Source: an uncultured Bacteroidaceae bacterium (GTDB lineage Bacteria > Bacteroidota > Bacteroidia > Bacteroidales > Bacteroidaceae). From it: 62,769 nucleotides of DNA. This document shows, piece by piece, positions 544-61,283 of this stretch. The first letter of the stretch is position 1. Every line of letters starts with the position of its first letter. The translations under genes and the position numbers were made by a program. Under the pieces are notes generated by a model. That model was not told the origin of the DNA, ran no database searches, and saw only the letters and a list, made by a program, of their open reading frames with translations. The stretch covers positions 1 through 62,769 of the forward strand of contig CAJOJA010000013.1 in NCBI GenBank assembly GCA_905234735.1, given 5' to 3'.

Positions 544-564
544 TCTAATCCCGAACCCCTAATC
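544..564. repeat. Heptamer tract, three units, at the lost hicA start
   Basis: On the minus strand the tract reads GATTAGG, GGTTCGG, GATTAGA, three 7-base units. The same unit family recurs at 50884-50911. It lies exactly where the hicA N-terminus should be. Confidence 0.6.
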
Positions 565-586
565 CACGTATTTTTATACAAAAGCC

Positions 587-617
587 TTTGCTTTCTCGAA
601 ACATATTCGTAACTTTG
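587..617 (+). promoter_or_regulatory. Bacteroidetes-type promoter for the ion channel
   Basis: TTTG at 587-590, a 19-base spacer, then TAACTTTG at 610-617. This matches the sigma-ABfr consensus TTTG/TAnnTTTG. The gene start follows 15 bases later. Confidence 0.75.
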
Positions 618-632
618 CGCCTGAACATAACT

Positions 633-1409
633 ATGGAACTGGCAAAACGTTTCTTTACAAATGACCATATCATGCTGGTGTTGGTGTTCATCAACACGGG
701 CATTATCTTCACCAGCGGTTTCATAAATCGCGAAGGGAATGTCCTGCTCATTATCGACAGCCTGTTTACGCTGCTGTTCCTGGTCGAAGCATGGGTCAAG
801 ATACGCGTACATGGCTTTCCGGGATATTGGGCTGACGGCTGGAATAGGTTTGACTTCATCATCGTGCTGTTGGCACTACCGGCGTGCATCAATCTCCTCG
901 GATTCGACTTCCCAGGAACGAACATACTCTTGTCGTTGAGGACGATGCGTGCATTCAAGTCTTTCCGCCTACTGAAGTTCATACCGAATATCGACAGTCT
1001 CCTGAAAGGTATCAGGATGGCATTCAGGTCTTCGTTCATCGTAGCTGTCGGGCTGATAGTCCTGTTGTTGATATTCAGCATCCTGACAACATTTCTCTTC
1101 GGCACGGCTGCCCCTCAGTACTTCGGGAACCCGGCCCTGAGTGTGTATTCCATCTTCCGCCTGTTCACGGTTGAAGGTTGGTATGAAATGCCCGAAGCCA
1201 TCGCCGCAAACAGCGGAGCGGGCATGGCCGTCTTCGCACGAATCTACTTCTCAACTCTGCTGTTCTTAGGCGGCATCATAGGCATGAGCCTGGTGAACAG
1301 TATTTTTGTTGACGCTATGGTCGCAGATAATAATGACGAGGTGCTTGAGAAGCTGTCTAAGTTGGAAAAGAAACTCGACGAGATGGATTTCCACTCGGAT
1401 GCTACTTAG
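633..1409 (+). CDS. Voltage-gated cation channel subunit (ion transport family, NaVBac-like)
   Basis: A 258-residue inner-membrane protein with the one-domain, six-helix layout of bacterial voltage-gated sodium channels, which assemble as tetramers. S1 is about 12-30, S2 37-56, S3 71-90, S4 97-118, S5 133-157, pore loop 169-190 and S6 200-226. S4 carries basic residues every third position (R103, R106, K109, R112, K115), the voltage-sensor pattern. The selectivity-filter region reads TVEGW (179-183), comparable to TLESW of NaChBac, so Na+ or Ca2+ selectivity is plausible but not proven. The tail at 234-251 is a short coiled coil (EVLEKLSKLEKKLDEM), as in tetramerising family members. I chose ATG 633 because it follows the promoter at 587-617; an upstream in-frame ATG at 588 lies inside that promoter. 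The stop is 8 bases before a copied addA start, suggesting an ancestral channel-addA operon. Confidence 0.85.
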   Translation: MELAKRFFTNDHIMLVLVFINTGIIFTSGFINREGNVLLIIDSLFTLLFLVEAWVKIRVHGFPGYWADGWNRFDFIIVLLALPACINLLGFDFPGTNILLSLRTMRAFKSFRLLKFIPNIDSLLKGIRMAFRSSFIVAVGLIVLLLIFSILTTFLFGTAAPQYFGNPALSVYSIFRLFTVEGWYEMPEAIAANSGAGMAVFARIYFSTLLFLGGIIGMSLVNSIFVDAMVADNNDEVLEKLSKLEKKLDEMDFHSDAT

Positions 1410-1417
1410 TTACTGAC

Positions 1418-1527: not shown

Positions 1528-4500
1528 TCACTTCGTGACCGGCGTGACGGACTTCGACGTACCGCCCGACGGCGTGGCACCGGTGGTGTAGGTGCCGCTC
1601 CAGAGCGCATTGCTGCCGCCGGAGATGGAGGTGCTGTTGTAGACGACGGTTCCCGAACCGCTCAGGCTGGGATGGCTGACCAGGATGTTGGCGCTGTTCA
1701 GGGCCTGCGGCATCTTGTAGCTGCAGAGCACCGTCCCGCTGCTGTTCTTGACGCTGATGTAGTAGCCCTTCGTCAGGCTTACGCTCGAGACCAGGGCGTA
1801 GGGCTGCGTGGCACTGGTGGGTACACCGGCAGTGGAGGTAGAGCCGCCGCCCTGGCTGCCGCCCGTGCCGATGAGCACGCCGCCCGTGAGCACGAAGTTG
1901 GCATTGTCGCAGTCGAAGGCCTCCTCGGGCGAGGTGGTGGAGGTGGCCACGACGATGCCGCCGTTGACCACGATGCCGCTGGTGCCGCTGGAGGCATTGG
2001 AGTCGATGGCATCGTTGTTGGAGGCGTGTGCCCAGACGTTTCCGTCGTTGAAGGTGATGGTGGAGGCCGCGTTGATGGCGTCGTCGTAGGTGTTGCTCTC
2101 GAAGGTACCGCCGTTGAAGGTGATGGTGGACTTGCTCTCCAGTCCCTCAGCTCCGTCGCTGGCTGTGCCCAGTGTGATGTCGCCGCCGTTTACGACGATG
2201 GCTCCCATGCACTTCACGGCCTTGGTGCTGCCGATGAAGCCCTCGTTCATGCCTCCGCCGGGGAATCCGCCCATTCCTCCCGACGAGGAGGTGGTGGCGA
2301 GGTATTGTCCTGTGGTGGTGACCGTGAGAACGGGGCCTGCGGAGCCACTGCCTATGGTGAGTTTGGAGGCCTTGGAGCTGTTTCCGACCTTTATGCCTTT
2401 GCCTCCGCGGGCCGAGCTGTTGATGGTGATGGTGCCGCCCTTCAGGGTCATGTCGCCGTCGCTCTTCAGCCCTCGGCTGCCCACGCCCTCCGTCTCTCCG
2501 TTGCCCGTATAGGTGGCACCGTCGCCCGTGGTCGTGAGGGTATAGGTGCCGTCGTTGACGGTGAGCGTGCCGTCGGCCGATATGCCTCGTGCCGCACTGC
2601 CGGTGGCATTGACGACTATCTCGCCTCCGTTGCCCACGTAGTCCGTGCACTTAAAGGCTGTGCAATAGCTGGGGTCGGTGCCGATGATGAGGTATTCGCC
2701 GCCTGCCGTGTCGGTGATGCTGCCTCCGTCGACCTGCATAGTGCCGTCGGCCTTCAGGCCCTTGCTGATGATGCCGTCGTGGGTGAGCGTGAGCACGGCA
2801 CCCGTGACGAGGATGTCGCCGTCGGCCTTCACGCAGAACGACTTGTAGGTCTCTCCCTCCTCGGTGGCCGTGGATGCGCTGCTCCAGGTCGAGGTGACGT
2901 CGCTAATCGGGTAGGTGCGCGTGGTGCTGCTGGTCGAATACGTGCTGCTGATGGTATAGAACACGTCGCTACCCGTGAGCGAGAGGCTGAAGGAAGCGCT
3001 GCGGATGGTGTAGGTGGACGAGGAGCCTCCGCCCCCCCATCCGCCTCCGCCGCCTCGCGAGGTGTAGTCGTCGCTCTTGAAGTAGTAGGTGCCGCTGGCG
3101 GCCTCTCCGAAGTCGTAGTAGTAGAACGTCGAGGTGGTTCCGTTGGCGCTCAGGCTTGCCTGGTTGGAGAGTGTGGCCACGAGAGTGCCGGAACTGTTGT
3201 AGAGGTAGACATTCTTCCAGGCCTGCGACGACTGTCCGCCGGGAAAAGAACCGCCTCCACCGCCAGAGGATGAGGTCGGAATGCTGACATACAGACGATA
3301 ACTCTTTGCAACGGTGGACGAGGATTTGTCGATGTCCAGGATGCCACCCTTTCCGTTGGCATTGATTTCGAGGCTGCCCCCCGTAAGCACCACGTTTCCG
3401 TCGGAGTTTATGCCTCGTCCACCGTCGGCTGTATTGTTGATGGTGAAGGTGCCCCCGGCAATGGTGAGCGTTCCGCCGGCCTTTATGGCGGTGGTGTAGC
3501 TGGGGTCGTAAACGGTAGCATCGTCGGTGGTGGTTTCGGTCACGATATAACTGCCACTCTGGGTAATGTCGAACGTACCGTCCGTGATGGTGATGTCCGT
3601 CATCGACTTGATGGCCTTCACGTCATCGCCCGTTGTGGTGATGGAGATGTCGCCCCCGGATATGGTCATCAGCGAATCACATTTTAGGGCCGACACATCG
3701 CTGCCCGAAAGGTTGATGGAAAGCACGCCGCCCGCGATTATCATCTGGCCGTTCTGCTCGTCGGCTGCGTTCTTAGTAACTTCGGCCTGTATGCCGTCGC
3801 CCTTTACATTGCTTATGCTGACGGTTCCCCCGTTCATCTGGAAGTACTGGCCCGCGTGTATGCCGTCGCTGGCAGCTCCGTTGATGGTGATGGTGCCCGT
3901 GGTTCGCTTCACCTCCATGTATTCGTTCGATGCTATGGCGTGCTTGCTGTTGCCGATAACGGTGAGCGCACCGCCCTTGCTTATCTCCAGATGGCCCTTG
4001 CAATAGAGAGCCGCCTTTTGGCTTCCGCTTCCGTCCACGAGCGTGTTCTGCGTACCTTCAGCCAGTTCCAGCGCAACGCGCTTTCCACACTGGAGGTAGA
4101 TGGCTGCACCTGCTGGGTTGGTGAGGTTGAGGCCATTAAGAATGAGGGCGGTCTTGTACGAGCCGGTGTAGGTGAACGAGCCGTTCTGACTTTCGCCGCT
4201 CAACACCGTGGCAAACTCCGCCGCTGTGTTGGTATTCTCCACGCTCACGTTGCCTCCGTTCACGGTTATGCTGACGTAGGGTTCCCATGCCGTGGGCAGG
4301 CTGTAGGTCACCTCCGTTTCCGTGTAACGGATAAACAGGGTGTCGGACGCAACTTCGGCCGTCGACTTGCCCAGAATGACATTTACCAACTGGGTGACAT
4401 CGGCAATGTTCACCTGTCCGTCGCCGTTGACATCCGCAAAGCTTTCGTCGTCGGCCGTGGCTTTGCCCAGAATGATGTTGACCAGTTGAGTGACGTCTGC

Positions 4501-4608
4501 GATGTTTACCTCGCCGTCGTTGTTTACGTCACCGATGTAGCGTGGATAGGCAGAGACCAGGGCCATCATCATGAGTCCCAACAGTGCTGCCATGCGTTTT
4601 GCTTTCAT
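1528..4608 (-). CDS. Secreted dockerin-like, DUF4353-type carbohydrate-binding protein
   Basis: A 1026-residue exported protein. Residues 1-20 are a signal peptide (LLGLMMMALVSA core). Two calcium-binding dockerin-type repeats follow at about 26-48 and 58-80, each with a D-x-N-x-D-G-x-V-N-I-A-D-V loop and a QLVN(I/V)ILGK helix. The remainder is right-handed beta-helix-like: many short strands in TITGGxxxI..AxxDGIxA patterns, typical of the DUF4353 (Cthe_2159-like) family, whose founding member binds polygalacturonic acid. Gly/Ser-rich linkers interrupt it (FPGG, GGGGG, GGMGGFPGGG). Start ATG 4608 is chosen for the signal peptide and because its promoter lies at 4648-4655; the open frame continues upstream without a secretion signal. 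A surface glycan-binding role is inference. The whole gene sits between two copies of the addA 5' end, so it probably arrived as an insertion. No cohesin partner is seen nearby. Confidence 0.8.
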   Translation of the reverse strand: MKAKRMAALLGLMMMALVSAYPRYIGDVNNDGEVNIADVTQLVNIILGKATADDESFADVNGDGQVNIADVTQLVNVILGKSTAEVASDTLFIRYTETEVTYSLPTAWEPYVSITVNGGNVSVENTNTAAEFATVLSGESQNGSFTYTGSYKTALILNGLNLTNPAGAAIYLQCGKRVALELAEGTQNTLVDGSGSQKAALYCKGHLEISKGGALTVIGNSKHAIASNEYMEVKRTTGTITINGAASDGIHAGQYFQMNGGTVSISNVKGDGIQAEVTKNAADEQNGQMIIAGGVLSINLSGSDVSALKCDSLMTISGGDISITTTGDDVKAIKSMTDITITDGTFDITQSGSYIVTETTTDDATVYDPSYTTAIKAGGTLTIAGGTFTINNTADGGRGINSDGNVVLTGGSLEINANGKGGILDIDKSSSTVAKSYRLYVSIPTSSSGGGGGSFPGGQSSQAWKNVYLYNSSGTLVATLSNQASLSANGTTSTFYYYDFGEAASGTYYFKSDDYTSRGGGGGWGGGGSSSTYTIRSASFSLSLTGSDVFYTISSTYSTSSTTRTYPISDVTSTWSSASTATEEGETYKSFCVKADGDILVTGAVLTLTHDGIISKGLKADGTMQVDGGSITDTAGGEYLIIGTDPSYCTAFKCTDYVGNGGEIVVNATGSAARGISADGTLTVNDGTYTLTTTGDGATYTGNGETEGVGSRGLKSDGDMTLKGGTITINSSARGGKGIKVGNSSKASKLTIGSGSAGPVLTVTTTGQYLATTSSSGGMGGFPGGGMNEGFIGSTKAVKCMGAIVVNGGDITLGTASDGAEGLESKSTITFNGGTFESNTYDDAINAASTITFNDGNVWAHASNNDAIDSNASSGTSGIVVNGGIVVATSTTSPEEAFDCDNANFVLTGGVLIGTGGSQGGGSTSTAGVPTSATQPYALVSSVSLTKGYYISVKNSSGTVLCSYKMPQALNSANILVSHPSLSGSGTVVYNSTSISGGSNALWSGTYTTGATPSGGTSKSVTPVTK

Positions 4609-4647
4609 TTCGTAAGTATTATTGCCGGATAAATTACAAATCGTGCG

Positions 4648-4655
4648 CAAAATTA
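4648..4655 (-). promoter_or_regulatory. -7 element for the dockerin protein gene
   Basis: On the minus strand this reads TAATTTTG, a TAnnTTTG match, 39 bases before the ATG at 4608. Confidence 0.55.
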
Positions 4656-4708
4656 CAAAAAAGAAACAAATAATGTTCGTTTCGTACACGTATTTAACAT
4701 TTATTTTA

Positions 4709-4716
4709 TAACTTTG
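4709..4716 (+). promoter_or_regulatory. -7 element for addA
   Basis: TAACTTTG at 4709-4716, 7 bases before the addA ATG, predicts a very short leader. If the 1445-4723 segment is an insertion, this promoter came with it and replaced readthrough from the channel gene. Confidence 0.6.
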
Positions 4717-4723
4717 TGCTGTT

Positions 4724-4750
4724 ATGAAGCCTCGGTTCCTACTCTTCAGC
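4724..4750 (+). repeat. 27-bp direct repeat, right copy
   Basis: Identical to 1418-1444. This copy is the functional start of addA. Confidence 0.9.
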
Positions 4751-7700
4751 GCATCGGCAGGCTCGGGAAAGACGTACAACCTGGCCATGCAATACATCGC
4801 ACTGCTCGTCCGGGGCGGTGCATCCGCACGTACGACAGGAAGCGCGCCCGCAGTGAGCGAACATACGTTCCGCCATACGCTGGCCGTGACGTTCACCAAC
4901 AAGGCCACGGCCGAGATGAAGGAAAGGATACTGAAGTTCCTCTACAACTTCTGGAAGGGGCTGGGCCATCCGAACGACTTCAGGAAACTGAACGAACTGC
5001 TCGCCAAGGACTACCAGTTGACGCTGCCCGAGCCCGAGGTGCGCGAACGGTGCCACCGGGCCCTGCGCGCCATCCTGCACGACTATAGCCGCTTCAGCGT
5101 AAGCACCATCGATGCCTTCTTCCAGACCGTGCTGCGCAACATGGCCCACGAACTGGGACTGAACGCCCGGCTGCAGGTAGATTTGGAGGACAAGGACGTC
5201 ATCAGTCTGGCCGTGGACAATCTGGTGGACAACCTGCGCCACGACAACCGTGACGTGCTGCCCTGGCTGCAGAGCTACATCGAGCAGCAGCTGGGCGAAG
5301 GGCGTGCCTGGGACGTGCGACGCGAACTGAAACAGACGGCACGTATGCTCTTCGAAGAGGCCTACCTGAAACGCTCGCTCGACCCCGCCAACCAGTCCTT
5401 CGACATCGAGAACATACGCGCCTTCCGCACTGCACTGGAAGAGGAACGCCAGCGGTTGCTGCTCCCCGTGCGACGACTGGCTCAGGACTTCGAGGACGTA
5501 CTTCGCAACAACGGGCTGGAATACGACGAACTGTGCAACTACAGCAACTACGTGCGCAACTACATCGAGGGACTGAAGGAGGGCAACCTGGAGGTGAAAT
5601 TCAACAGCTATCTGGCCGCCATGACCGACGAGCCCCTGAAGCTCCTGAAGGCCGCACTGCGCAGGGAGAAGGCACTACAGGCCATCGCCGAGGACCTCTC
5701 CGCCCGTCTGGCCCAGCTCCATCACTCCCACGAAGAGGCCAGCAAGCAGGTGGGCAGCATAGAACTGCTCCTCGCCAACCTGACGCCCATGGGACTGCTG
5801 GGAGCCATCGACCACGAAATCACCCGACTGTCGGACGCGCGAAACCGCTTCATGCTGGCCCGCACCCCCATCATGCTCAAACGCATGATTGGCACCGACG
5901 ACACACCCTTCATCTTCGAGCGCATCGGCACCCGCTACAACAACATCATGATTGACGAATTCCAGGACACGAGCCAACTGCAATGGGAGAACTTCCGCAC
6001 GTTGCTCGTCGACAACCTGGCCTCGGGCGGACTGAGCATGGTGGTGGGCGACATCAAGCAGAGCATCTACCGCTGGCGCAACGGCGACTGGCACATCCTG
6101 CACGACCTGAACCGAAACGGCTACAACGGTACTCCGCTGCTGAAGGAGGAGTTGCGCACGAACTTCCGCAGCCTGGGGAAAATCGTTACCTTCAACAACC
6201 TCTTCTTCCCCCTGGCCGCCAGCGAACTGGACAAGCTGGACACGAGCAGCAGCGTACACCTGAAGGACCTCTACGCCGACGTGTCGCAGGAGATACATAA
6301 GGAGAAGGAGAAAGGCTTCGTGCGCATACAACTCTGCCAGGCCGACGACGCCGAGACGGAGGAGGCATGGGAGGAATGGATGCTGGCCGACCTGTGCCGT
6401 CAGGTGGCCGACCTGCACGGGCGGGGTATCCCCTACCGCGAGATGACCATCCTGCTGCGCAAGAATCGCTACATCGGCCCCACCATCGCCTACTTTGCCG
6501 AACACATGCCCGAGGTGCAACTGGTCTCGAACGAAGCCTTCCTGCTGGGAGCATCGGTGGCCGTGAGGATGATGGTGTGCGCCCTGCAAATGGTAGACGA
6601 CCGTGAGCGCGACCCCGTGGCCGTAGCCTACATCGTGAAGCACTACGTTCGCGACGTACTCCACCAGACGGAGACCACGGAGAACGACTTCCTGCTGGCT
6701 GAGCCGGAGGACAGCCTGCCAGAGGACTTCATCCAGAACCTGGACGAACTGCGCCGACTGCCCCTCTACGAGCTGTGCGAGACACTGTACCGCGCGCTCC
6801 ACCTGCAGGAAATCCAGGGACAGGACGCCTACCTGTTTGCCTTCTTCGACGAACTGGCCACCTACCTGCGCGACAATCCGTCGGACATCCCCACCTTCAT
6901 CCAGCATTGGACCGACACCATGCAGCACAAGGCCATACCCGGGGGCGATACCGAAGGCATACGCATATACTCGATACACAAGGCCAAGGGACTGGCCTTC
7001 CACACCGTGCTGATGCCCTACGCCGAATGGGACATCGAAAAGGACCGCAACGAAAGCCTCTTCTGGTGCCATCCCAAGGAGGCGCCCCTCAATAGGATGG
7101 GTTCCGTACCCATACACTTCACCGCTCGCGTGCGCAAAAGCATCTTCTCCCAGGACTACCTGGCGGAGCACGTCAGCCGACGCGCCGACGAGCTAAACGA
7201 CCTGTACGTGGCCTTCACCCGTGCGAAGGCAAACCTGTACGTCTGGGGACTGAGCACCACAGAACTGAAGCCGGACAACTACGCCATCACCATCGCCGAC
7301 CTGATGCACCAATGCCTTGAGGACGTGGAGGGCATAGAAAGCCATACGGAGGACGACTCGGGGGTGCTGACGACCTACACCTACGGACCTGAACCGACAA
7401 ACGAGGGCATCGAGCCCATGCCCACGCAGCAGACGGGCACCCCCATCGGAATGTGTTCCTACGGTGGCGACTTCACCTTCCGCCAAAGCAGTCGGGCACG
7501 GGCCTTCATCAGCGACCTGACGTCGGAACCCGAAGAGGGTGAGAGCCGCATGGAGTATGTGGAACAGGGTAAACTGCTGCACTACATCTTCAGCCAAATC
7601 AGCACGGCAGACGACATAGACCGCGTAATACGACAATTTGCCCAGCAGGGTATACTGAAGTCGGACAGCCAGGTGCGCAAGACCCGCGAACTGGCCCTGC

Positions 7701-8002
7701 GAGGCCTGCGCCACGAACAGGTGCGCGACTGGTACTCGGGCCGCTACCGGCTGTTCAACGAATGCAACATACTGGTGCCCAACCCCGAGACGGGCAAACT
7801 GGAGACGCGCCGCCCCGACCGCGTCATGATGTCGGCAGAACGCATCATCATCGTCGACTTCAAGTTCGGAAACGCGCGTCCCGAATACCACCGGCAGGTG
7901 GCCGAATATATGCAGATATTGCAGAGTATGTACCCACAGCACGCAGTCGAGGGATGGCTGTGGTATGTGTATAGGAACAGAGTGGAAGAAGTGAAAGATT
8001 AG
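4724..8002 (+). CDS. addA: AddA/RecB-like UvrD-family helicase-nuclease
   Basis: The large subunit of a RecBCD/AddAB-type double-strand-break resection enzyme, 1092 residues, cytoplasmic. Helicase motifs are in order: Walker A SASAGSGKT (9-17), motif II IDEFQD near 410, motif III GDIKQSIYRWR near 440, motif V SIHKAKG near 750 and motif VI LYVAFTRAK near 826. The C-terminal RecB-type nuclease shows the IVDFK catalytic strand near 1042 followed by the EYMQIL helix, so the nuclease looks intact. The start is fixed by the N-terminal KPRFLLFSASAG, which leads directly into the P-loop. The gene is followed after 2 bases by the addB partner, so translation is likely coupled. Its first 27 bases are duplicated at 1418-1444. 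Confidence 0.9.
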   Translation: MKPRFLLFSASAGSGKTYNLAMQYIALLVRGGASARTTGSAPAVSEHTFRHTLAVTFTNKATAEMKERILKFLYNFWKGLGHPNDFRKLNELLAKDYQLTLPEPEVRERCHRALRAILHDYSRFSVSTIDAFFQTVLRNMAHELGLNARLQVDLEDKDVISLAVDNLVDNLRHDNRDVLPWLQSYIEQQLGEGRAWDVRRELKQTARMLFEEAYLKRSLDPANQSFDIENIRAFRTALEEERQRLLLPVRRLAQDFEDVLRNNGLEYDELCNYSNYVRNYIEGLKEGNLEVKFNSYLAAMTDEPLKLLKAALRREKALQAIAEDLSARLAQLHHSHEEASKQVGSIELLLANLTPMGLLGAIDHEITRLSDARNRFMLARTPIMLKRMIGTDDTPFIFERIGTRYNNIMIDEFQDTSQLQWENFRTLLVDNLASGGLSMVVGDIKQSIYRWRNGDWHILHDLNRNGYNGTPLLKEELRTNFRSLGKIVTFNNLFFPLAASELDKLDTSSSVHLKDLYADVSQEIHKEKEKGFVRIQLCQADDAETEEAWEEWMLADLCRQVADLHGRGIPYREMTILLRKNRYIGPTIAYFAEHMPEVQLVSNEAFLLGASVAVRMMVCALQMVDDRERDPVAVAYIVKHYVRDVLHQTETTENDFLLAEPEDSLPEDFIQNLDELRRLPLYELCETLYRALHLQEIQGQDAYLFAFFDELATYLRDNPSDIPTFIQHWTDTMQHKAIPGGDTEGIRIYSIHKAKGLAFHTVLMPYAEWDIEKDRNESLFWCHPKEAPLNRMGSVPIHFTARVRKSIFSQDYLAEHVSRRADELNDLYVAFTRAKANLYVWGLSTTELKPDNYAITIADLMHQCLEDVEGIESHTEDDSGVLTTYTYGPEPTNEGIEPMPTQQTGTPIGMCSYGGDFTFRQSSRARAFISDLTSEPEEGESRMEYVEQGKLLHYIFSQISTADDIDRVIRQFAQQGILKSDSQVRKTRELALRGLRHEQVRDWYSGRYRLFNECNILVPNPETGKLETRRPDRVMMSAERIIIVDFKFGNARPEYHRQVAEYMQILQSMYPQHAVEGWLWYVYRNRVEEVKD

Positions 8003-8004
8003 AG

Positions 8005-10791
8005 ATGAGACCATTTTTATATCACGTAGCCAAAGACCTGATAAGCCGATACGGCAACAACCTGTCGGACGTAATCATCGTGTTCCCAGGCAAACGGGCA
8101 CAGCTGTACATGAACGCCTTCCTGTCGCACATCGCCCAGGGGCCTGTCTGGGCACCGCACTTTGTCACCATCGACGAGCTCTTCCAGCAGCTCTCGCCCT
8201 ACACGCCAAGCGACAACATCCGAAACGTCTGCATGCTCTATCGCATCTATGCCCGTCTGGTGCCCGATGCACCCACGCTCGACGATTTCTACAGCTGGGG
8301 CGAAATCCTGATGAACGACTTCAACGACATCGACAAACATCTGGTTCCCGCCGACAAGCTCTTCACCAACACCGCCGAACTGGCAGCCCTGGACAGTAAC
8401 GACTTCCTCAGCGATAGCCAGATGGAGGCCCTGCGCCAGTTCTTCCTCCACTTCGACCCCGACCACCAGACCGCCATCAAACAGCGTTTCCTGAAGATGT
8501 GGCAGGCCATGCCCCAGATGTACCACCAACTGAAGGAGGAACTCCGCCAGCAGGGGCTGATGTACAAGGGGGCACTGTACAGGGAAGTGGTAGCCCTCCT
8601 CAGTGAGAAGGGGCAAGGGGCAAGGGGCAAGAGATTTGCCTTCGTCGGCTTCAACGTACTCGACGAGGTGGAGGAGGCTCTGTTTTCATATCTGCGCGAC
8701 AACGGGAAAGCCCTGTTCTACTGGGACTACGATACCTACTACACCACCGAGGACTCCACCCACGAGGCCGGACTCTTCCTGCGCCACAACCTGCAGACGT
8801 ACCCCAACGCCCTGACGGAGGACATCTACCACAACCTGATGAGCGAGGAAAAGGAGATTCGATTCCTGGCCACCGCCACCGACAACGCACAGGCACGCTA
8901 TCTGCCACAGTGGCTCGAAGAGGAAAAGCGACGCGACGACTGGAACGACGGGGCCTCGGCTGCCGTCATCCTGTGCGACGAAGCACTGATGCGCCCCGTC
9001 CTGCACGCCATACCCGACGGCACGAGTGCCAACCTGACCATGGGCTACCCGCTGACCGACACGGCCATCTACGGCTACCTCTCGGTCCTCTTCGACCTGC
9101 AAGTGGAAGGGTTCGACAGCGATGCCCAACGCTTCCGTCCCACGGCCCTGGAACGCGTAGAGCACAACCCGTTCTTTGTCTCCTTCCCCGAGGAGATGCG
9201 CCCCATCACTCACCAGAAGGAAAATCTCCAACTCATAGACTGGCTCATCGCGGCCATCGAAGCCGTAGGCCGACATCTGGCCCAATCCTCTTCCGAGCAA
9301 AGCGAGGAATCAACTTTCAACTTTCAACTTTCAACTCTCAACTCACTATACTCCGAAGCCACGTTCCAGCTATACCAGACGCTGTCGCAGTTCCGCTGGG
9401 TAATCACCGAGGGCATACTCCAAGTGCAGGCCCATACCCTGCGCCGTCTCGTGCGCCAAGCGCTGCAGACGACCAGCATCCCCTTCCACGGAGAGATGGC
9501 CCAAGGACTGCAGGTGATGGGCGTACTGGAGGCACGCAACCTCGACTTCCGACATCTCATCATGCTCTCCGTAGGCGAGGGCATCATCCCACGGCGCACC
9601 AGCGACACCTCGCTCATCCCCTACGTCCTGCGTGCCCACTTCGGACTCGACACCACCGAACGGCAGGATGCCGTCTATGCCTACTCCTTCTACCGACTGC
9701 TACAACGGGCCAAGGACATCACCCTCGTCTACAACGACAACAGCAGCGGCACCAGCCAACGCGAGCAGAGCCGCTTCCTGCGCCAACTCCGGGCCGAGAC
9801 CGACCTGCCCATCACGGAACTCACCTCGTCGCAATTCGTCAGCCTGAGCACCCCGTCACCCATCACCGTCGAGAAAGACCAGCGCGTCATGAGTCGGCTC
9901 ATGAGCAAACGATACCTCTCCCCGACGGCCATCAACCAGTACATCGCCTGCCCGCTCCGCTTCTACTATCAACAAGTGGCGGGCATACGGATGCCCGAAC
10001 GACCGCAGGACGGCATCGACGCCGCCATCTTCGGCACACTGTTTCACGACACCTGCGAACACTTCTATCGCACACTCTGCCAGAACAACGGACGCAAGGA
10101 AGTCACGCCCAGCGACATCCTGCCCTACATCGAACAGCCTCTGCGACTGACACCCCACCTCGATGCTGCCTTCGGAGACATCCCCTGCCACGCAGGCGTA
10201 AACATGATTATACGCGAAGTCATCACCAAACTCGTACTGCAACTGCTGCGCTGGGACATGGCCCACGCCCCCTTCACCCTCTACGACCTGGAACGCGAGG
10301 TCAGCATGGACTTCACCATACCCGTGCCCCAGGGCAGCGTCACCCTGACCATAGGCGGACGCATCGACCGCATGGACATCATGAACATCAACGGCCGCCC
10401 CACCCTGCGCGTGCTGGACTACAAGAGCGGACGGACAAAGACCGGCTGTCGCGACGTGGCCAGCATCTTCGAGGCAACGCCGGGGAGCGCACACGGTTAC
10501 TACCTGCAGACCTTCCTCTACTCCCTCATCATGAGCCACAAGGAGAAGGAGATGCCCGTCAGCCCCTGTCTGTTCTACGTACTCTCGGCCACCGATGCCG
10601 ACAACTACTCCCCCACCCTGCGCCTGGGGAAAAATCCTATCACGGACATACGCGAATATGCAGAGGAGTACGTCAGCGAACTGCGCCGCCTGCTGTCCGA
10701 AATCTACGACCCCTCACGCCCCTTCGTGCAGACCCTGGACGAGCCGAAACAGTGTCAGATGTGCGATTTCCGACGTCTTTGCGGTCGATAA
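8005..10791 (+). CDS. addB: AddB-like PD-(D/E)XK exonuclease subunit
   Basis: A 928-residue partner of the preceding helicase-nuclease. The N-terminal half is an inactivated helicase-like region (VIIVFPGKRA near 25). The C-terminal nuclease has GTLFHDTCEHFY, LDYKSG near 805 (the D-x-K of the PD-(D/E)XK site), and four cysteines placed as in the AddB iron-sulfur cluster: one in YIACPLRFYY near 648 and three in CQMCDFRRLC near 917-926. Two stretches do not look like the family. EKGQGARGK near 201-209 is encoded by three GGGGCAA units, and TFNFQLSTLNS near 436-446 by five CAACTTT-type units; both keep the frame. The nuclease and cluster are intact, so I expect the enzyme to work. The gene is in an operon with addA. 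Confidence 0.88.
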   Translation: MRPFLYHVAKDLISRYGNNLSDVIIVFPGKRAQLYMNAFLSHIAQGPVWAPHFVTIDELFQQLSPYTPSDNIRNVCMLYRIYARLVPDAPTLDDFYSWGEILMNDFNDIDKHLVPADKLFTNTAELAALDSNDFLSDSQMEALRQFFLHFDPDHQTAIKQRFLKMWQAMPQMYHQLKEELRQQGLMYKGALYREVVALLSEKGQGARGKRFAFVGFNVLDEVEEALFSYLRDNGKALFYWDYDTYYTTEDSTHEAGLFLRHNLQTYPNALTEDIYHNLMSEEKEIRFLATATDNAQARYLPQWLEEEKRRDDWNDGASAAVILCDEALMRPVLHAIPDGTSANLTMGYPLTDTAIYGYLSVLFDLQVEGFDSDAQRFRPTALERVEHNPFFVSFPEEMRPITHQKENLQLIDWLIAAIEAVGRHLAQSSSEQSEESTFNFQLSTLNSLYSEATFQLYQTLSQFRWVITEGILQVQAHTLRRLVRQALQTTSIPFHGEMAQGLQVMGVLEARNLDFRHLIMLSVGEGIIPRRTSDTSLIPYVLRAHFGLDTTERQDAVYAYSFYRLLQRAKDITLVYNDNSSGTSQREQSRFLRQLRAETDLPITELTSSQFVSLSTPSPITVEKDQRVMSRLMSKRYLSPTAINQYIACPLRFYYQQVAGIRMPERPQDGIDAAIFGTLFHDTCEHFYRTLCQNNGRKEVTPSDILPYIEQPLRLTPHLDAAFGDIPCHAGVNMIIREVITKLVLQLLRWDMAHAPFTLYDLEREVSMDFTIPVPQGSVTLTIGGRIDRMDIMNINGRPTLRVLDYKSGRTKTGCRDVASIFEATPGSAHGYYLQTFLYSLIMSHKEKEMPVSPCLFYVLSATDADNYSPTLRLGKNPITDIREYAEEYVSELRRLLSEIYDPSRPFVQTLDEPKQCQMCDFRRLCGR
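8610..8630. repeat. Heptamer tract GGGGCAA x3 inside addB
   Basis: Three exact 7-base units (8610-8616, 8617-8623, 8624-8630). The reverse complement, TTGCCCC, is the unit repeated four times inside lpdA at 43547-43574. Confidence 0.85.
9311..9345. repeat. Heptamer tract CAACTTT x5 inside addB
   Basis: Units CAACTTT x3, CAACTCT, CAACTCA, in phase. The same unit family is intergenic at 10801-10849 and, as CAATTTT, overlaps the RND pump stop at 25147-25167. Confidence 0.85.
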
Positions 10792-10800
10792 TACAATATT

Positions 10801-10849
10801 TTTTAATTATTAATTCTTATTTTCAACTTTCAATTTTCAACTTTCAATT
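10801..10849. repeat. Intergenic heptamer tract, seven units
   Basis: From 10801 the sequence parses as TTTTAAT, TATTAAT, TCTTATT, TTCAACT, TTCAATT, TTCAACT, TTCAATT. The period is exactly 7 over 49 bases. It ends just before the tRNA promoter. Confidence 0.75.
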
Positions 10850-10857
10850 TAATTTCG

Positions 10858-10865
10858 TACCTTTG
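10858..10865 (+). promoter_or_regulatory. -7 element for tRNA-Arg
   Basis: TACCTTTG, a TAnnTTTG match, 17 bases upstream of the mature tRNA 5' end. Confidence 0.65.
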
Positions 10866-10882
10866 CACCCGATTTCAAGGAT

Positions 10883-10957
10883 GGTTCGGTAGCTCAGTCG
10901 GATCAGAGCAACAGCCTTCTAAGCTGTGGGTCATGGGTTCGAATCCCATCCGAATCA
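10883..10957 (+). tRNA. tRNA-Arg (anticodon UCU)
   Basis: A full cloverleaf: acceptor GGTTCGG pairs with CCGAATC (one G-U), the D arm has AGCTCAGTCGGATCAGAGC, the anticodon stem ACAGC/GCTGT holds the loop CTTCTAA with anticodon TCT, and the T arm reads ATGGGTTCGAATCCCAT. CCA is not encoded, so it must be added enzymatically. It reads AGA/AGG codons. It has its own promoter and is followed directly by a hairpin terminator. Confidence 0.95.
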
Positions 10958-10960
10958 CGC

Positions 10961-10999
10961 AAAAAGCCCCGCTGGCCGTATGGACAGCGGGGCTTTTTT
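10961..10999. terminator. Bidirectional terminator between tRNA-Arg and the surface-protein array
   Basis: AAAAAGCCCCGCTG and CAGCGGGGCTTTTTT form a strong hairpin with A- and T-runs on the two sides. It can stop the tRNA transcript and, on the other strand, the small gene ending at 11017. Confidence 0.85.
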
Positions 11000-11016
11000 G
11001 CGTATGGTCAGAGGCT

Positions 11017-11223
11017 TCAACCGCCTATCAGCGACTCGTCGCGGATCTGGTCGATGAGGCTCTCAGAGGCGTCGAGGTCGAAGATGTTGAGGTTCTCGTT
11101 GAAGTCATGGACCCACTGGTCCTGAACGTAGTCATCCAAATTGAGGCTAAGGCTCTCGCTTAGCAGCTGGACGCCTTCGCTCATCACGGTCTCCGATTCG
11201 GGAGCAATATACTTTCTCTTCAT
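11017..11223 (-). CDS. Small YIAP-type peptide, function unknown
   Basis: A 68-residue acidic protein beginning MKRKYIAPESETV, with no signal peptide or membrane segment. The start resembles the short protein at 62564-62737 (MNKIYIAPDTRIV). Short peptides with this K-x-YIAP opening are frequent in Prevotella-like genomes as I remember them, and I know of no function. It lies 20 bases downstream of the large secreted repeat protein on the same strand and just before the terminator at 10961-10999, so it is probably the last gene of that operon. Ordinary codon use and a defined operon position argue that it is real. Confidence 0.6.
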   Translation of the reverse strand: MKRKYIAPESETVMSEGVQLLSESLSLNLDDYVQDQWVHDFNENLNIFDLDASESLIDQIRDESLIGG

Positions 11224-11243
11224 AGTTATATCCGTTTGGGGGG

Positions 11244-14654: not shown

Positions 14655-14688
14655 ATCGTATCTTGTTTTAATGTTTTCGTTTTCTTCA

Positions 14689-16056: not shown

Positions 16057-16079
16057 AATCTTAATGTTTTTATTTCGTT

Positions 16080-16113
16080 TATACCTTTATTATATATACG
16101 CGTGCGTGAGGGG
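16080..16113 (-). repeat. TATA/CGCG intergenic motif, copy 1
   Basis: TATACCTTTATTATATATA followed by CGCGTGCGTGAGGGG (plus-strand reading), directly abutting the stop of the 16114 gene. It is clearly related to 17415-17450 and 19884-19916. Confidence 0.7.
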
Positions 16114-17391: not shown

Positions 17392-17414
17392 ATATTGTAT
17401 TTCTTTATGTTGTT

Positions 17415-17450
17415 TATACCTTTTATATTATATACGCGCGAGAGGGGGGA
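17415..17450 (-). repeat. TATA/CGCG intergenic motif, copy 2
   Basis: TATACCTTTTATATTATATA then CGCGCGAGAGGGGGGA, abutting the stop of the 17451 gene and 24 bases before the next start. Same layout as the other two copies. Confidence 0.7.
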
Positions 17451-18914: not shown

Positions 18915-19130
18915 AATGTTATTGTTTAAAATGTTGTTGTTGTTTCTTTTGTTCTTGGTCGCTTCGTCCTATGACGGTACTGAGACAAACGGAAAAACAC
19001 AACCCATGCCCCTCCCGAGCGGGAGGGGAGACTGGATAGTATTGTGGCGGGGGGAATGGAATACGGAAGCGCCGGGACTTCCCTTGCAGGGGTCTCGGCG
19101 GATAATTTCCTTTTTAGGGGGGTAGTGTGC

Positions 19131-23782: not shown

Positions 23783-23793
23783 CAAACCCAGGC

Positions 23794-25140: not shown

Positions 25141-25145
25141 GCCTT

Positions 25146-43978: not shown

Positions 43979-44013
43979 TAGGCAAATTATTGTACTTTTT
44001 ATTGCAGATTTTT

Positions 44014-44043
44014 TTGCCTGTTCACTTCTTTTTCATAATTTTG
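44014..44043 (+). promoter_or_regulatory. Promoter of the leader RNA and surface-protein pair
   Basis: TTG at 44014-44016, 19 bases, then TAATTTTG at 44036-44043. Predicted transcript start near 44050, about 280 bases ahead of the first gene. Confidence 0.75.
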
Positions 44044-44046
44044 CAT

Positions 44047-44231
44047 CGTGCAAGGTGTTGCACGAAACTTTTTATTTGCTCATTTCTCGCTCGAATTGGT
44101 ACCTCGGAAGAAGATAACGAGCAAAGAAGGTCACAGATAATCTGTGTCTTTCAGCCTACTACGTATGAGGTTTGCGTTAAGCGCAGATTTCTCCATAACG
44201 TAGTAGGGGCCAGTACCAAGCCTGAGCGAGA
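44047..44231 (+). ncRNA. Candidate structured leader RNA (multi-branch)
   Basis: Right after the promoter comes a 7-bp hairpin CGTGCAA-GGTG-TTGCACG (44047-44064). Then a closing helix pairs TCTCGCTC (44085-44092) with GAGCGAGA (44224-44231), and continues as TTGGTAC (44096-44102) with GTACCAA (44213-44219). Enclosed are CTCG/CGAG (44103-44106/44118-44121), CACAGA-TAA-TCTGTG (44132-44146) and CCTACTACGT/ACGTAGTAGG (44155-44164/44198-44207) with a small inner TGCG/CGCA hairpin. That is about 40 paired positions in 147 bases around a junction. It could be a riboswitch-like or protein-binding leader for the gene at 44332, or an independent sRNA. I do not recognise it as TPP, cobalamin, SAM, 6S, tmRNA or RNase P. 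Confidence 0.45.
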
Positions 44232-44331
44232 TATGGTTGAGGTCTGCGCTTTCTCTGTACTCAGCGGTTAGTGCTACTCTGCCATATTCGAGGCAAACAT
44301 TTTAGTATTAACCTATTTAATAAATGAGCAA

Positions 44332-45432: not shown

Positions 45433-45456
45433 TAATTCCTCTAACGATTCTGAACT

Positions 45457-50883: not shown

Positions 50884-50911
50884 GATTGGGGATTAGAGAT
50901 TAGAATTAGGG
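50884..50911. repeat. Heptamer tract GATTAGA x4, intergenic
   Basis: GATTGGG, GATTAGA, GATTAGA, ATTAGGG in phase, between rpmH and its terminator. The unit also appears at the eroded hicA start (544-564). Confidence 0.75.
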
Positions 50912-57575: not shown

Positions 57576-57600
57576 GTCTTTAGTATTTATAATGTTCATA

Positions 57601-57680
57601 CTCTCTACGCCGGCATTACCCGGTTCAGATTCATAGGGTCTGTTCTCAGCCACGCCAAACGGCGCAGCACCCCTGATAAC
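57601..57680 (-). promoter_or_regulatory. TPP riboswitch (THI box)
   Basis: On the minus strand: ATCAGGGGTGCTGCGC, then TGGCTGAGAACAGACCC, TATGAATCTGAACCGGGTAA and TGCCGGCGTAGAGAG. The core GGGGTGC...GCTGAGA...ACCC...TGAAYCTGAWCYGGGTAATRCCRGCGTA of the TPP aptamer is complete. It lies 26 bases before the receptor ATG, so translational or early transcriptional control by thiamine pyrophosphate is expected. Confidence 0.95.
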
Positions 57681-57685
57681 GGTTG

Positions 57686-58844: not shown

Positions 58845-59469
58845 AGTCAAAGAGATTTACATCCTCCGCTGCGTCAACGTCGATGTCCGACAGGCTGTCA
58901 ACGTCCAGTTCCTCCTCCCGATTGTCGCCTACAATCAGGGTGATGACGGCATCCGCAGGCACACGTTCGCCCGCCATGACGGTGCGACCCTGGCACTTCA
59001 CGCCATAGACCCAGTCCTTATCGCCCGGAATGCGTTCGACGGGCCCCATGCGAAATCCCAGCTGGCGCAGTCGCTCCTGTGCCTCGCGCAACGAACAGTT
59101 GTCGGCAATGTCGGGCAGACCGACGGTAGGCGACTCGCGCGAGTTGATGGTCAGGTATATCTCGCGGCCCGACTTCACACGGCTGCCAGCCTTCGGCAAC
59201 TGCACCATGATGGCTCCCGAAGGGCGGTTGCGGTCGTAGATGGAATCCACCACCACGGCCTTCAGTCCCTCCATGTCCAGGGTGTACTCGGCATCGCCTA
59301 TCAGTTTGCCCTCGACGTTGGGCACTACTATCTTTTCCCCGTGGTGGGTGTATATGTCAAGCCCCATCCATACGCCGACAGCCAGCAGTATGGCCACCAG
59401 CCCCATTGCCAGCAGGTTACCCCACAGGATGGGACTCAGCATCTTCTGTTTGAACTCTTTTCCAGTCAT
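58837..59469 (-). CDS. PASTA-domain membrane protein
   Basis: A 210-residue protein with one membrane segment (about 13-37) and two or three PASTA domains outside (IVVPNVEGKLIGDAEYTL; VGLPDIADNCSLREAQERL; YGVKCQGRTVMAGERV). PASTA domains bind peptidoglycan or muropeptides. There is no kinase or transpeptidase domain, so it is a stand-alone PASTA protein, common in Bacteroidetes between rluD and ddl genes. The acidic tail (DVDSLSDIDVDAAED) is unusual. It lies 10 bases after the NigD-like gene. Confidence 0.85.
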   Translation of the reverse strand: MTGKEFKQKMLSPILWGNLLAMGLVAILLAVGVWMGLDIYTHHGEKIVVPNVEGKLIGDAEYTLDMEGLKAVVVDSIYDRNRPSGAIMVQLPKAGSRVKSGREIYLTINSRESPTVGLPDIADNCSLREAQERLRQLGFRMGPVERIPGDKDWVYGVKCQGRTVMAGERVPADAVITLIVGDNREEELDVDSLSDIDVDAAEDVNLFDYD

Positions 59470-59479
59470 AAAATTATAG

Positions 59480-60085
59480 CTATTTGGTTATGGTCCACTC
59501 GCGCATCCCGTCAAAGGTCTGGATGCGCAGCGTTATCGTGTCGGCCTCGACTGCACTGAGACGCAGCGAGGCATAGAGGTCGGTACTGTAGGCCACAGGG
59601 TCGTCGCCCTGACGGTGATGGAGGCGCAGGTAGGCATGGTTCCCTGTCAGGCTGTCGGTGGCATAGCCCCAGTCGTGCTTGCCTCCCTGGGTTTTCGGGC
59701 GCAGGTGCAGATTGAGATACCGGGGACTGCACCATAGGCTGACGACCGCCGTGGGGTCAAAGACAGCCACCTGCGTTGAGTCGCGCAGCAATGCGGCCGA
59801 CTGCAGCGTATAGAGGGTCACGCGCCCATCGTCCTCCCGTGCATATCCGGCCAGTGCCCGGTAGACGACACTCGGGCGCAAGTCCTCCTGTGGGTTCACG
59901 AGTTCGAGTCGCGTGTCGTTGTCCAGTACGATGAATGAGAGTATGCCCGCCGAGTCCGTGGGACAGTCCACCAGCTCCGAGACAATGCTGGGAAAGGGAG
60001 CATCGTCGTCATCGTGGCACGACGACAGGAGGCAGGTCAGCAAACCGCCCAGAAGCAGGAGCGAAAGTCTAACGGGCACTTTCAT
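59480..60085 (-). CDS. NigD-like lipoprotein
   Basis: A 201-residue lipoprotein with lipobox ending at C23 (CLLSSC) and a following HDDDD export signal. The N-terminal LVDCPTDSAGILSFIVLDND and the C-terminal beta sandwich (ADTITLRIQTFDGMREW) resemble NigD-like proteins, a Bacteroidales family of unknown function. It overlaps the acyltransferase gene by 17 bases. Confidence 0.75.
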   Translation of the reverse strand: MKVPVRLSLLLLGGLLTCLLSSCHDDDDAPFPSIVSELVDCPTDSAGILSFIVLDNDTRLELVNPQEDLRPSVVYRALAGYAREDDGRVTLYTLQSAALLRDSTQVAVFDPTAVVSLWCSPRYLNLHLRPKTQGGKHDWGYATDSLTGNHAYLRLHHRQGDDPVAYSTDLYASLRLSAVEADTITLRIQTFDGMREWTITK

Positions 60086-61253
60086 AGTTCCTTACCGGGT
60101 TGGCATACATGGTGAGGATGCGCTCGCGCAGGAAGTCGTCGTCGCGCTGGGGCAGGTCGATGAGCTCAATGCGGCCCTGCACGTATTTCTCGAACTCCAC
60201 GAGCTGCTTGTGGGTGTAGCGGTCGGCATGAACGGCTTTTCCCGAGAGCAGGTCGAAAGCAGCATAGTTGACGGGGAACAGGCGATAGTTGCGGTGTATC
60301 TCAATGTCTATCCGGCGGGCCAGCTCCGAGAAGAAGTCCTTTGCACCCAGTCCCGCTAGCTCGTCGATCCACGTATTCACGGGACGTCCCGTCTGGTAGT
60401 GGACGTGGCCCTTCTGGCCGAAGATGCCGGTCTTCATGTTCAGCAGGTCGTCCTGTTTCGACTTTTTCCATGCCGGGTCGTTGCGGCGCTGTTGGAACTC
60501 CTTGGCCTTCAGGTAGTCGCAGGGGTCATATTCGTAACTGATGCTGAGTGGTACGATGTTCAGGTTGCGTATGCATTCCGATATTTTCTCTGTACCCTCT
60601 GTCTTCGCTGTGCCCTCTGTGTCGCTCGCAAGGGCAAGCATCTTCAGCAGCGACACCTGCGTCTCGTCGCTGGAGTCCTTGGCACGTCCCTCGCGCTGAG
60701 CTATCCAGATGTTCTCGTGCTTCTCGCGAATGACGTGTTGCATGTAGCGGCTCATCAGGAGGCTGCTCTCGTAGAGCTCATGGCGTGCAATGTTGCGCCG
60801 CACGATGAAGGCCTTGTTGAGGCGCACCAAGGTACGTATCCAGGGATAAACGAGCAGATTGTCGCCAATGGCTATCTCGCACGTGGTAGGGAACTTCGCG
60901 TCGTAGAGCATCACGTCCAGTATGGCACTGTCGAGCACGATGTCGCGATGATTGCTCAGGAACGTGTAGCGCTCGTCTCCTGGGGCTACGCCGTCGTGGG
61001 CGAAGGTGTGTCCCGTGCTGCACTTCCGCAGTACGTGGTTCACCACGGGCTTCATGAAGCGTGCCTGGAAACCGAGCGTCGAGCGAATGCCCAGGGTGGC
61101 CAGTCGCAACATGCCCCGGCTCAAGCCCAGGGGCAGGAAGGGTGCCACACTCTGGAGTATGTGCGAGAACTGCCTGTCGTGGAGCAAACTCTCTATCGCC
61201 TCCTTCACCTCATCGTCGTTGTAGGGCCTTATGGCGCTGAATTCGTCGTTCAT
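60069..61253 (-). CDS. PlsC-like glycerolipid acyltransferase
   Basis: A 394-residue acyltransferase with the site FLSNHRDIVLDSA: His102 and Asp108 are five residues apart, one more than the standard H-x4-D. Later FIVRRNIARHELY and IWIAQREGRAKD fit the substrate-binding blocks. The likely reaction is acyl transfer to lysophosphatidic acid or a related acceptor; other PlsC-type acceptors are possible. Near residues 214-224 the peptide SDTEGTAKTEGTEK comes from a short CCCTCTGT-containing direct repeat (60589-60623), again a family-foreign patch. It is second gene of the ddl operon. Confidence 0.78.
   Translation of the reverse strand: MNDEFSAIRPYNDDEVKEAIESLLHDRQFSHILQSVAPFLPLGLSRGMLRLATLGIRSTLGFQARFMKPVVNHVLRKCSTGHTFAHDGVAPGDERYTFLSNHRDIVLDSAILDVMLYDAKFPTTCEIAIGDNLLVYPWIRTLVRLNKAFIVRRNIARHELYESSLLMSRYMQHVIREKHENIWIAQREGRAKDSSDETQVSLLKMLALASDTEGTAKTEGTEKISECIRNLNIVPLSISYEYDPCDYLKAKEFQQRRNDPAWKKSKQDDLLNMKTGIFGQKGHVHYQTGRPVNTWIDELAGLGAKDFFSELARRIDIEIHRNYRLFPVNYAAFDLLSGKAVHADRYTHKQLVEFEKYVQGRIELIDLPQRDDDFLRERILTMYANPVRNYESAR
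60589..60623. repeat. Short direct repeat inside the acyltransferase gene
   Basis: Two copies of TGTRCCCTCTGTST-type sequence, each containing CCCTCTGT, 18 bases apart. It encodes the TEGTAKTEGTEK patch. Confidence 0.6.
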
Positions 61254-61262
61254 GCTATGAAT

Positions 61263-61283
61263 TTTTCACTTTTCACTTATCCT
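61263..61283. repeat. Heptamer tract TTTTCAC x2 at the ddl stop
   Basis: TTTTCAC, TTTTCAC, TTATCCT in phase. The ddl TGA stop (61273-61275) is the TCA of the second unit. Confidence 0.6.

Follow-up and report, generated by a model that had tools for sequence, protein, structure and literature searches.

Tandem repeats with a seven-base unit have been described in several bacterial groups, and dispersed heptamer repeats are already known outside the organism studied here. Among long simple sequence repeats with units of 5-11 nt, the heptanucleotide class is reported to be the commonest and to be patchily distributed among genomes (Mrazek et al. 2007, as related in PMC4679880 and PMC4692102). 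The heptamers GGGAATC and GGGGA(C/T)T of Xanthomonas and Nostoc are described as dispersed, mostly in four units and some as inverted pairs; these G-rich repeats form quadruplexes in vitro, and 89-93% of them lie between genes (Rehm et al. 2015, PMC4692102). Direct repeats of TAACTGA are reported from Beggiatoaceae, some Cyanobacteria and five Bacteroidetes, where they are lineage-specific and often lie beside start codons, and they have been proposed to be binding sites of an RNA- or DNA-binding regulator (MacGregor 2015, PMC4679880). Two other systems share features with the repeats analyzed below, namely the palindromic elements of Rickettsia, blocks of about 150 bp carried in frame by unrelated protein genes (PMC10969869), and the BrickBuilt miniature inverted-repeat transposable element (MITE) of Porphyromonas gingivalis, a dispersed and always intergenic tandem repeat with a 23-nt unit and with leader and tail ends (PMC4596501). 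Here we analyze heptamer tandem tracts in a contig of 62,769 nucleotides (CAJOJA010000013.1, assembly GCA_905234735.1) from an uncultured Bacteroidaceae bacterium, in the following called the window. An initial annotation of the window had listed 13 such tracts and knew of no description for this group, a view that the TAACTGA heptamers reported in five Bacteroidetes contradict; its analogue, the cyanobacterial STRR (short tandemly repeated repetitive) heptamers, differs in host, which here belongs to the Bacteroidales.

The genome carrying the window (G000, with the window as G000:C13:1-62769) is a 2.95-Mb draft in 59 contigs and 87% complete. Its statistics are based on the window together with forty 20-kb stretches, in total 863 kb or 29% of the genome. 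Within the window, six exact period-7 runs of at least nine matches were found versus 0.53 expected, and four runs of at least 13 matches versus 0.00 expected (local order-2 Markov model, 40 simulations). Over 463 kb, comprising the window and twenty 20-kb stretches, 30 period-7 runs of at least 10 matches compare with 1.3 expected (order-3 Markov model, three simulations). After removal of homopolymers, of units made up of a repeated shorter unit, and of N-containing tracts, those with a score of at least 12 numbered 1, 2, 79, 15, 16, 1 and 2 for periods 5 to 11 in the 863 kb. The suggested excess of period 7 is thus borne out against periods 5, 6, 8 and 9, and the opposite outcome, with period 7 no more frequent than its neighbors, does not apply in the sampled 29%. 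The period-8 and period-9 tracts mostly form one family each: 12 of the 15 period-8 tracts differ from a single unit, TTTTCTCA / TGAGAAAA, at no more than two positions, and 13 of the 16 period-9 tracts are within two substitutions of four related TATAGGTCC-like units, nine of them clustered in one 13-kb stretch of G000:C2. Several tandem families are therefore dispersed in G000, with heptamers making up the largest share. The nine clustered 9-base tracts (L128, G000:C2:60001-80000, local positions 7556-19999) occur at junctions of genes and within predicted lipoprotein signal peptides, the genes concerned being fimbrillin-like (Mfa_like_1) and DUF5119 genes.

It was previously suggested that the tracts share a period but not a sequence. 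The shared period stands, while the second part does not, as the 79 heptamer tracts of G000 fall into 32 unit classes and form 176 same-class pairs, where intergenic 7-mers matched for GC would form 15.3 +/- 4.0. The commonest classes are AAAGTTG (12 tracts), AAAAATT (9) and AAAATTG (9), the G-rich AAGGGGC class being a minority (4/79), and 31 of the 32 classes differ from another by a single substitution, a figure for which no null was computed. Moreover, 15 of the 27 tracts lying inside genes belong to a class also seen outside genes (null 2.9). With a family extending across the sampled genome, one generating process is judged more likely than independent accidents, as the initial annotation had proposed. 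The vocabulary is in part common to close relatives, these being draft metagenome assemblies with crude gene starts, compared without a species tree; 36 genomes of the same genus were open to search. Tracts falling into G000 classes make up 9/13 in G001 (null 2.1), few of whose 20-kb stretches are homologous to those of G000, 7/13 in G018 (1.8), 6/7 in G014 (0.8), 3/6 in G017 (0.5), 3/9 in G029 (1.6), 2/8 in G016 (0.6) and 1/5 in G003 (0.3), each above its null.

The families are lineage-limited and occur in clade-limited bursts. A search for the 8-base family with the 22-base pattern TTCTCATT, allowing up to two mismatches and possibly several matches per tract, gave 202 matches in G026, 66 in G000, 47 in G001, 23 in G014 and 17 in G017, and 0-3 in the other 56 of 61 genomes; the pattern was found in 10 of the 61 and in none of the remaining 51, and the reversed-pattern control gave no match except one in G020. 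Three exact copies of TTTCAAC occur 58 times in G018, 29 in G029, 23 in G000, 13 in G014, 9 in G003 and 0-2 times elsewhere, that is in 13 of 61 genomes and not in most of the genus; the reversed pattern is here a rotation of the same repeat and hence no control. No period-7 tract was present in the 89, 84 and 80 kb sampled from G012, G011 and G004, all of the same genus; in the per-genome densities some overlapping loci enter twice, and some loci had been picked around tract-bearing genes of G000. Compared with the long repeats of Mrazek et al., as far as the citing papers relate them, the excess of period 7 over chance and over other periods and the patchiness among genomes are alike; the present case adds several unit families, a shared vocabulary, clade-limited bursts, and a strong clustering of tracts in enzyme loops and within the first 40 codons, in predicted signal peptides. 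The Beggiatoaceae, as described, have one dominant unit, TAACTGA, in contrast to the many related units found here, and the TAACTGA class was represented by no tract in the sampled stretches of 24 genomes. No tract fell into the GGGAATC or GGGGA(C/T)T classes. Relative to the published Xanthomonas and Nostoc repeats the tracts are mostly AT-rich, have a similar copy number, and lie inside genes in 27 of 79 cases. A similar copy number in AT-rich tracts is not predicted by the quadruplex explanation, which calls for four G-runs.

In several genes homologous positions could be read in relatives (AddB, 16 of 30 loci; threonine synthase, 27 of 30, one without a match; DsbD-like, 17 of 20; RecG, 21 of 24). 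The AddB-like PD-(D/E)XK nuclease gene at 8005-10791 (plus strand; PDDEXK_1, E 7e-31, with TIGR03623 and AddB models matching below their cut-offs) hosts two solid tracts. One of these, TCAACTT x5 at 9310-9344 (plus), is an in-frame insert of 11 residues (33 nt) whose alignment columns are empty in 15 of 15 relatives; the aligned segment measures exactly 31 residues in G001, G021, G003, G007, G006, G008, G005 and G012, and 24-43 in the other seven. The other, AAGGGGC x3.4 at 8608-8631 (plus), lies in a length-variable loop, for which the aligned segment spans 36-57 residues in 16 genomes and a period-7 tract is found in G000 only. In the DsbD-like protein (DsbD_TM) of G000 the predicted signal peptide has 33 residues, compared to 19 in G017 and G001, and among the 17 loci read only G000 has a period-7 tract.

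The threonine synthase gene thrC (31830-33158, minus; TIGR00260 above cut-off; PDB 1vb3, E 7e-107) carries an imperfect tract, sense GAAGAGT/GAAGAAT, at 32405-32442 (minus, score 10), where ThrC is longer than 1vb3 by seven residues. Among 19 genomes of the genus read at this loop, six, including G000, have a heptamer tract (scores 8-29), and about five different units are represented among them; three have palindromes (judged by eye), five a compact loop of 15-16 residues and five a repeat-free loop of 17-23, and no period-7 tract was present in the seven genomes read from other families. The cofactor-independent phosphoglycerate mutase gene apgM (33182-34606, minus; NF003242 above cut-off) matches its model from residue 72, and its called start is probably too early. 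The protein is 43-81% identical to homologues at 25 Bacteroidales loci, from Bacteroidaceae and Prevotellaceae metagenome-assembled genomes, Paraprevotella, Prevotella and Phocaeicola, many of them titled as rumen or other gut. Its loop contains an imperfect tract, sense CAATTAT/CAATTGT, at 33371-33403 (minus, score 11). At the same place G005 (L042) bears a different heptamer tract, several relatives have an unrelated 13-residue sequence equal in length to the window tract, and yet other relatives have a longer loop, some with GC-rich palindromes. A period-7 tract is also present in the RecG leader of G000, and with another sequence in that of G018, while none occurs in the stretch examined at the other 19 loci. 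Repeat-free homologues of host genes exist, the AddB insert being absent from all 15 relatives and the ThrC and ApgM loops being free of repeats in some.

Inside genes, many tracts lie close to the start and encode predicted signal-peptide cores. Among coding tracts of periods 7, 8 and 9, 27 of 51 have their midpoint in the first 40 codons versus 8.7% expected (p 6e-16), genes with weak scores or with a start outside the stretch having been left out of the count. Read by eye, 20 of these 27 appear as signal peptides, in 18 genes, the other seven being leaders before a likely later start, or other. A crude signal-peptide rule flags 231 of 501 genes, which is clearly too many, and 14 of these overlap a tract. 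One case in the window is the gene for an outer-membrane efflux protein of OEP/TolC type (23794-25149, minus; PF02321, E 2e-44), where an 8-base tract, sense TTTTCTCA x4.6 at 25089-25125 (minus), encodes the predicted signal-peptide core in MKRTIFLIFSFSHFLIFLATAQ. A degenerate copy is found at the same place in G001, and none was seen in 16 other readable relatives apart from a weak 7-mer in G016, the N-terminus being out of view in three of 21 loci (G012, G022, G024). Other predicted signal peptides encoded by tracts are MRRYALILIFSFSHFLIGGANAQ, MKRLSFFIFNFSFLISAYGQ and MRRIGLIGLISLMGLMGLMGLMTSC, and types such as FLIFSFSHFLIF and QFSIFNFQFSI occur as well. Among 22 tracts at 8-base-family loci (19 of 20 gave rows, from nine same-genus genomes including G000 and from G051 of another family), ten were assigned to signal peptides (about seven convincingly), four lay in an open reading frame (ORF), three in a leader, and five fell under none of these. 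On the pyrimidine strand of the TTCTCATT family every frame is open and reads as hydrophobic sequence, and the other strand has an ATG and a TGA in each unit. In the literature covered, most subscription papers lying outside its scope, we found no description of Bacteroidales signal peptides that derive from tandem repeats.

We consider it an even bet that the tracts are lineage-limited dispersed tandem families that have spread by en bloc copying and have then been filtered by selection. In the preferred mechanism, in which a new tract is likely a copy of an older one, an existing tract would be copied as a small block, with units of seven and less often eight or nine bases, into a new site. 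Template switching during replication could do this, as could short-patch repair, with a few matching bases serving as the primer; of mechanisms requiring no dedicated gene, template switching would be the simplest. Selection would then probably keep only the harmless or usable tracts, perfect runs beyond about 35 bp would be unstable, and the three homes of the tracts, gene junctions, signal-peptide cores and enzyme loops, may reflect tolerance and occasional use. The 33-nt AddB insert together with the shared vocabulary favors copying of an existing tract en bloc. The Rickettsia palindromic elements offer a parallel in their in-frame insertion into unrelated genes (here AddB, the DsbD-like predicted signal peptide and ThrC), although the tracts, at about 33 bp and in tandem, differ from the elements as described, and an inverted partner accompanies 8 of 79. 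BrickBuilt, in the published description, is likewise a dispersed tandem repeat in Bacteroidales, the units here being of 7-9 bases and found inside genes too. A more specific version, that the tracts are minimal self-spreading cassettes of about 33 bases, with no gene or ends of their own, which supply signal peptides, leaders and enzyme loops, is held tentatively and with more doubt than confidence.

Several observations weigh against en bloc copying. Neither a donor-recipient pair nor a target-site duplication nor a conserved flank came to light, donors and duplications not having been searched for systematically, and in a blastn comparison of one query region with the rest of G000 the matches (25-58 nt) were confined to tracts and the few bases next to them. 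Alignment is less certain in the variable loop that holds the AddB insert, and the segment is equally long through another insertion in G019 (42 residues) and G010 (43). Net length changes are not uniform, being 0 in ApgM (relative to the 13-residue form), +18 nt in ThrC (relative to the 16-residue form), +33 in AddB and +42 in the DsbD-like gene, the last a multiple of seven. At the 33150 junction, a tract with sense ATGAATT (33150-33183, minus, solid) that bridges the apgM stop and the thrC start codon, the related sequence of G001 is shorter, as if the tract had grown in place. Finally, some hydrophobic codon strings are by nature 7- or 8-periodic, so that part of the signal-peptide tracts could have arisen in situ.

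The main rival to en bloc copying is stepwise replication slippage by a polymerase that inherently favors a 7-nt period, an idea going back to Mrazek et al. 2007 (via PMC4679880 and PMC4692102), by which tracts would grow from chance seeds and share units because AT-rich seeds are similar. The lengths of the tracts speak partly in its favor. In G000 tracts span 19-53 bp of tandem units, with 41 of 79 at 32-38 bp, 22 at 25-31, 11 at 19-24 and five above 38, and the drop above 38 bp holds both in genes (21, 4, 2 and 0 in the same order) and outside them (20, 18, 9 and 5). In G014 four of seven tracts are exactly 25 bp, and imperfect tracts in G018 reach 101 bp; two of the G018 arrays, 98 bp of CAACTTT with CAACTCT interruptions (L077, 15918-16015) and 101 bp of GTTTAAG/GTTTAAA (L080, 15579-15679), are unlike the short tracts of G000. 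Among 102 perfect TTTCAAC runs counted in G000, G003, G014, G018 and G029, some within one longer imperfect array and a few close to the end of a contig, three full copies are present in 72 and four in 30, and none has five or more, where a geometric distribution would give about nine, which suggests that longer perfect runs are unstable. Such a ceiling fits length-dependent contraction. Slippage is also favored by the dominance of period 7 among sequence-diverse tracts, by the apparent local growth at 33150, and by tract lengths, since 28 of the 54 tracts that measure 28-38 bp have the commonest lengths, 7n+4 or 7n+5. Nevertheless, 33 nt is not a multiple of seven, making a stepwise origin of the AddB insert improbable, and growth by single heptamers would pass through frameshifted intermediates in genes such as addB. 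Sharing of units far above that of GC-matched intergenic 7-mers, period-8 and period-9 tracts that mostly form one family each, which a period preference does not predict, and the lack of tracts in the sampled DNA of G012, G011 and G004 argue in the same direction, and we regard slippage as unlikely to be the main process.

The distribution over genes and gaps bears on a second alternative, that the tracts are sites for an RNA- or DNA-binding regulator, selected mainly in leaders upstream of start codons. With gene calls from a crude caller (87% coding), the 79 tracts divide into 27 inside genes, 31 that straddle a gene edge and 21 between genes, in agreement with the initial annotation that they occur within conserved enzymes (the AddB, ThrC and ApgM loops) as well as between genes (junctions). 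Gaps between codirectional genes hold 0.62 tracts per kb (39 tracts), divergent gaps 0.58 (10) and convergent gaps 0.16 (2). A tract is present in 20 of 131 codirectional gaps of 15-60 bp, several spanning from stop to start codon, and in 29 of the 39 tracts of codirectional gaps the sense strand is the one rich in purines. These three features, occupied short gaps, strand bias and scarcity in convergent gaps, count in favor of a regulator acting on leaders. However, 27 tracts lie wholly inside genes, and there the purine-rich strand is sense in 8 of 27, leaving 19 in the opposite orientation; in addition, the units vary by site, and species differ in the unit they have in the ThrC loop. G001 and 18 other relatives lack the RecG leader tract, and the leader tract at L144 10326 was not found in G001. 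With regard to placement, which for TAACTGA is reported as mostly intergenic and just upstream of start codons, 52 of the 79 tracts are not wholly in genes and many sit at junctions with no clear preference within the gap, nor was a preferred distance to the start codon seen within the gaps of G000. A regulator appears improbable. Within genes, a strand free of stop codons is kept in 24 of 27 tracts compared to 19 in shuffles, and outside genes there is no such excess (31/52 versus 36.5). Protein-level selection thus seems to act as a filter inside genes only, and to that extent it matters, contrary to the initial annotation, which had set it aside. A vocabulary picked for being stop-free was ruled out by the same lack of enrichment outside genes.

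In the tract-bearing enzyme loops, GC-rich or perfect in-frame palindromes are found in some relatives, namely in the ThrC loops of L225 (G005), L227 (G013) and L245 (G018) and in the ApgM loop of L012, and constitute a second, palindromic kind of in-frame insert. They raise the question of whether the tracts could be the arms of a transposase-driven palindromic element, similar to a MITE or a Rickettsia palindromic element. Inverted pairs of heptamer arms do exist, for example in ThrC of L012 and G003, and the hairpins of G005, G013 and G018 (by eye) occupy the very ThrC loop that elsewhere carries tracts. In G000, on the other hand, an inverted partner (score at least 12) was found for 8 of 79 tracts versus 5 in a weak reversed-flank control, and G000, G001, G014, G016 and G018 have no RAYT (REP-associated tyrosine transposase), other transposase families and a fixed core not having been searched for; we take this origin to be very improbable. 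The inverted-arm interpretation, attractive in L012 and G003, was dropped for the few pairs in G000, and mobilization of the RAYT/REP (repetitive extragenic palindromic) type for the absence of a PF01797 match in G000 (37 genomes searched). The same Y1_Tnp search gave one marginal match in G003 and one below cut-off in G017, and was positive in 5 of 14 control genomes.

That the repeats are written into the genome from a 7-base RNA template by a reverse transcriptase or a telomerase-like enzyme, the former an activity the initial annotation had named, is hardly credible. The size of the blocks, the constant length of the unit and the tract lengths of 7n+4 or 7n+5 would be compatible with it, but the 32 unit classes would need many RNA templates, and in the 61 genomes searched RVT_1 was absent from G000 (the candidate being dropped on this ground, at 87% completeness) and from G001, G003, G016, G017, G026 and G029, also incomplete, though matched in tract-rich G014 and G018, and was present in the tract-poor G004, G011 and G012. 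End-joining with filler DNA through Ku was dropped as well, as PF02735 was absent from all 61 genomes, so that Ku offers no contrast between tract-rich and tract-poor ones.

Of the 13 tracts originally named in the window, a position-by-position check left eight solid (score at least 10) and three weak, while two are not heptameric. In this check the tracts of the ThrC loop and of the apgM-thrC junction covered 32405-32427 and 33150-33179. The solid tracts include, besides those above, CAACTTT/CAATTTT at 10821-10847 (plus; named as 10801), between the addB stop and a tRNA-Arg (10883-10958) and not seen in the aligned gap of G001; sense AAAATTG x3.4 at 25144-25167 (minus), across the stop of an RND permease gene and upstream of the efflux-protein start, with the adjoining 8-base tract at 25089-25125 missing from the earlier list; and CTTGCCC x4.3 at 43543-43575 (plus), flanked by two short ORFs of the minus strand, neither of which matches Pfam. 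The weak ones are a two-copy TTTTTAA at 36296-36311 (plus, score 9) within thrA (34390-36822, minus), a tract at 50884-50904 (score 8), and a two-copy TTTTCAC at 61263-61278 (plus, score 9) at the junction of D-Ala-D-Ala ligase and acyltransferase-like genes, both on the minus strand. As a heptamer insert the first of these, originally placed at 36282, does not hold up, being ordinary coding sequence with the same length and point mutations in G001. At 544 the best repeat has a period of 14 (score 7), and at 28505 a 15-base unit is present twice. The window further contains a TPP riboswitch (57584-57684, minus); an 87-base tandem repeat of 2.6 copies (20077-20300) in the gene for a large Ig-like/beta-helix protein (19917-22922, minus); three tandem copies of a 22-base unit (23712-23787) downstream of the efflux gene; a region (44001-49236) in which GC dips to 42.5% (44001-48000) over a dockerin-bearing protein of 1259 residues (DUF7619, Dockerin_1); and a second dockerin ORF with Cthe_2159 domains (1528-4908, minus).

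The abundance of heptamers among bacterial long-unit repeats has so far, in the sources cited, been ascribed to polymerase slippage or, for G-rich units, linked to quadruplexes. A genus ranging from many tracts to none in the sampled DNA, with lineage-specific in-frame inserts in enzymes, makes both answers testable. The TTCTCATT family, through its hydrophobic pyrimidine strand, suggests a route by which repeats could turn into signal peptides, and if en bloc spread is true, the tracts would be raw material for new protein pieces.

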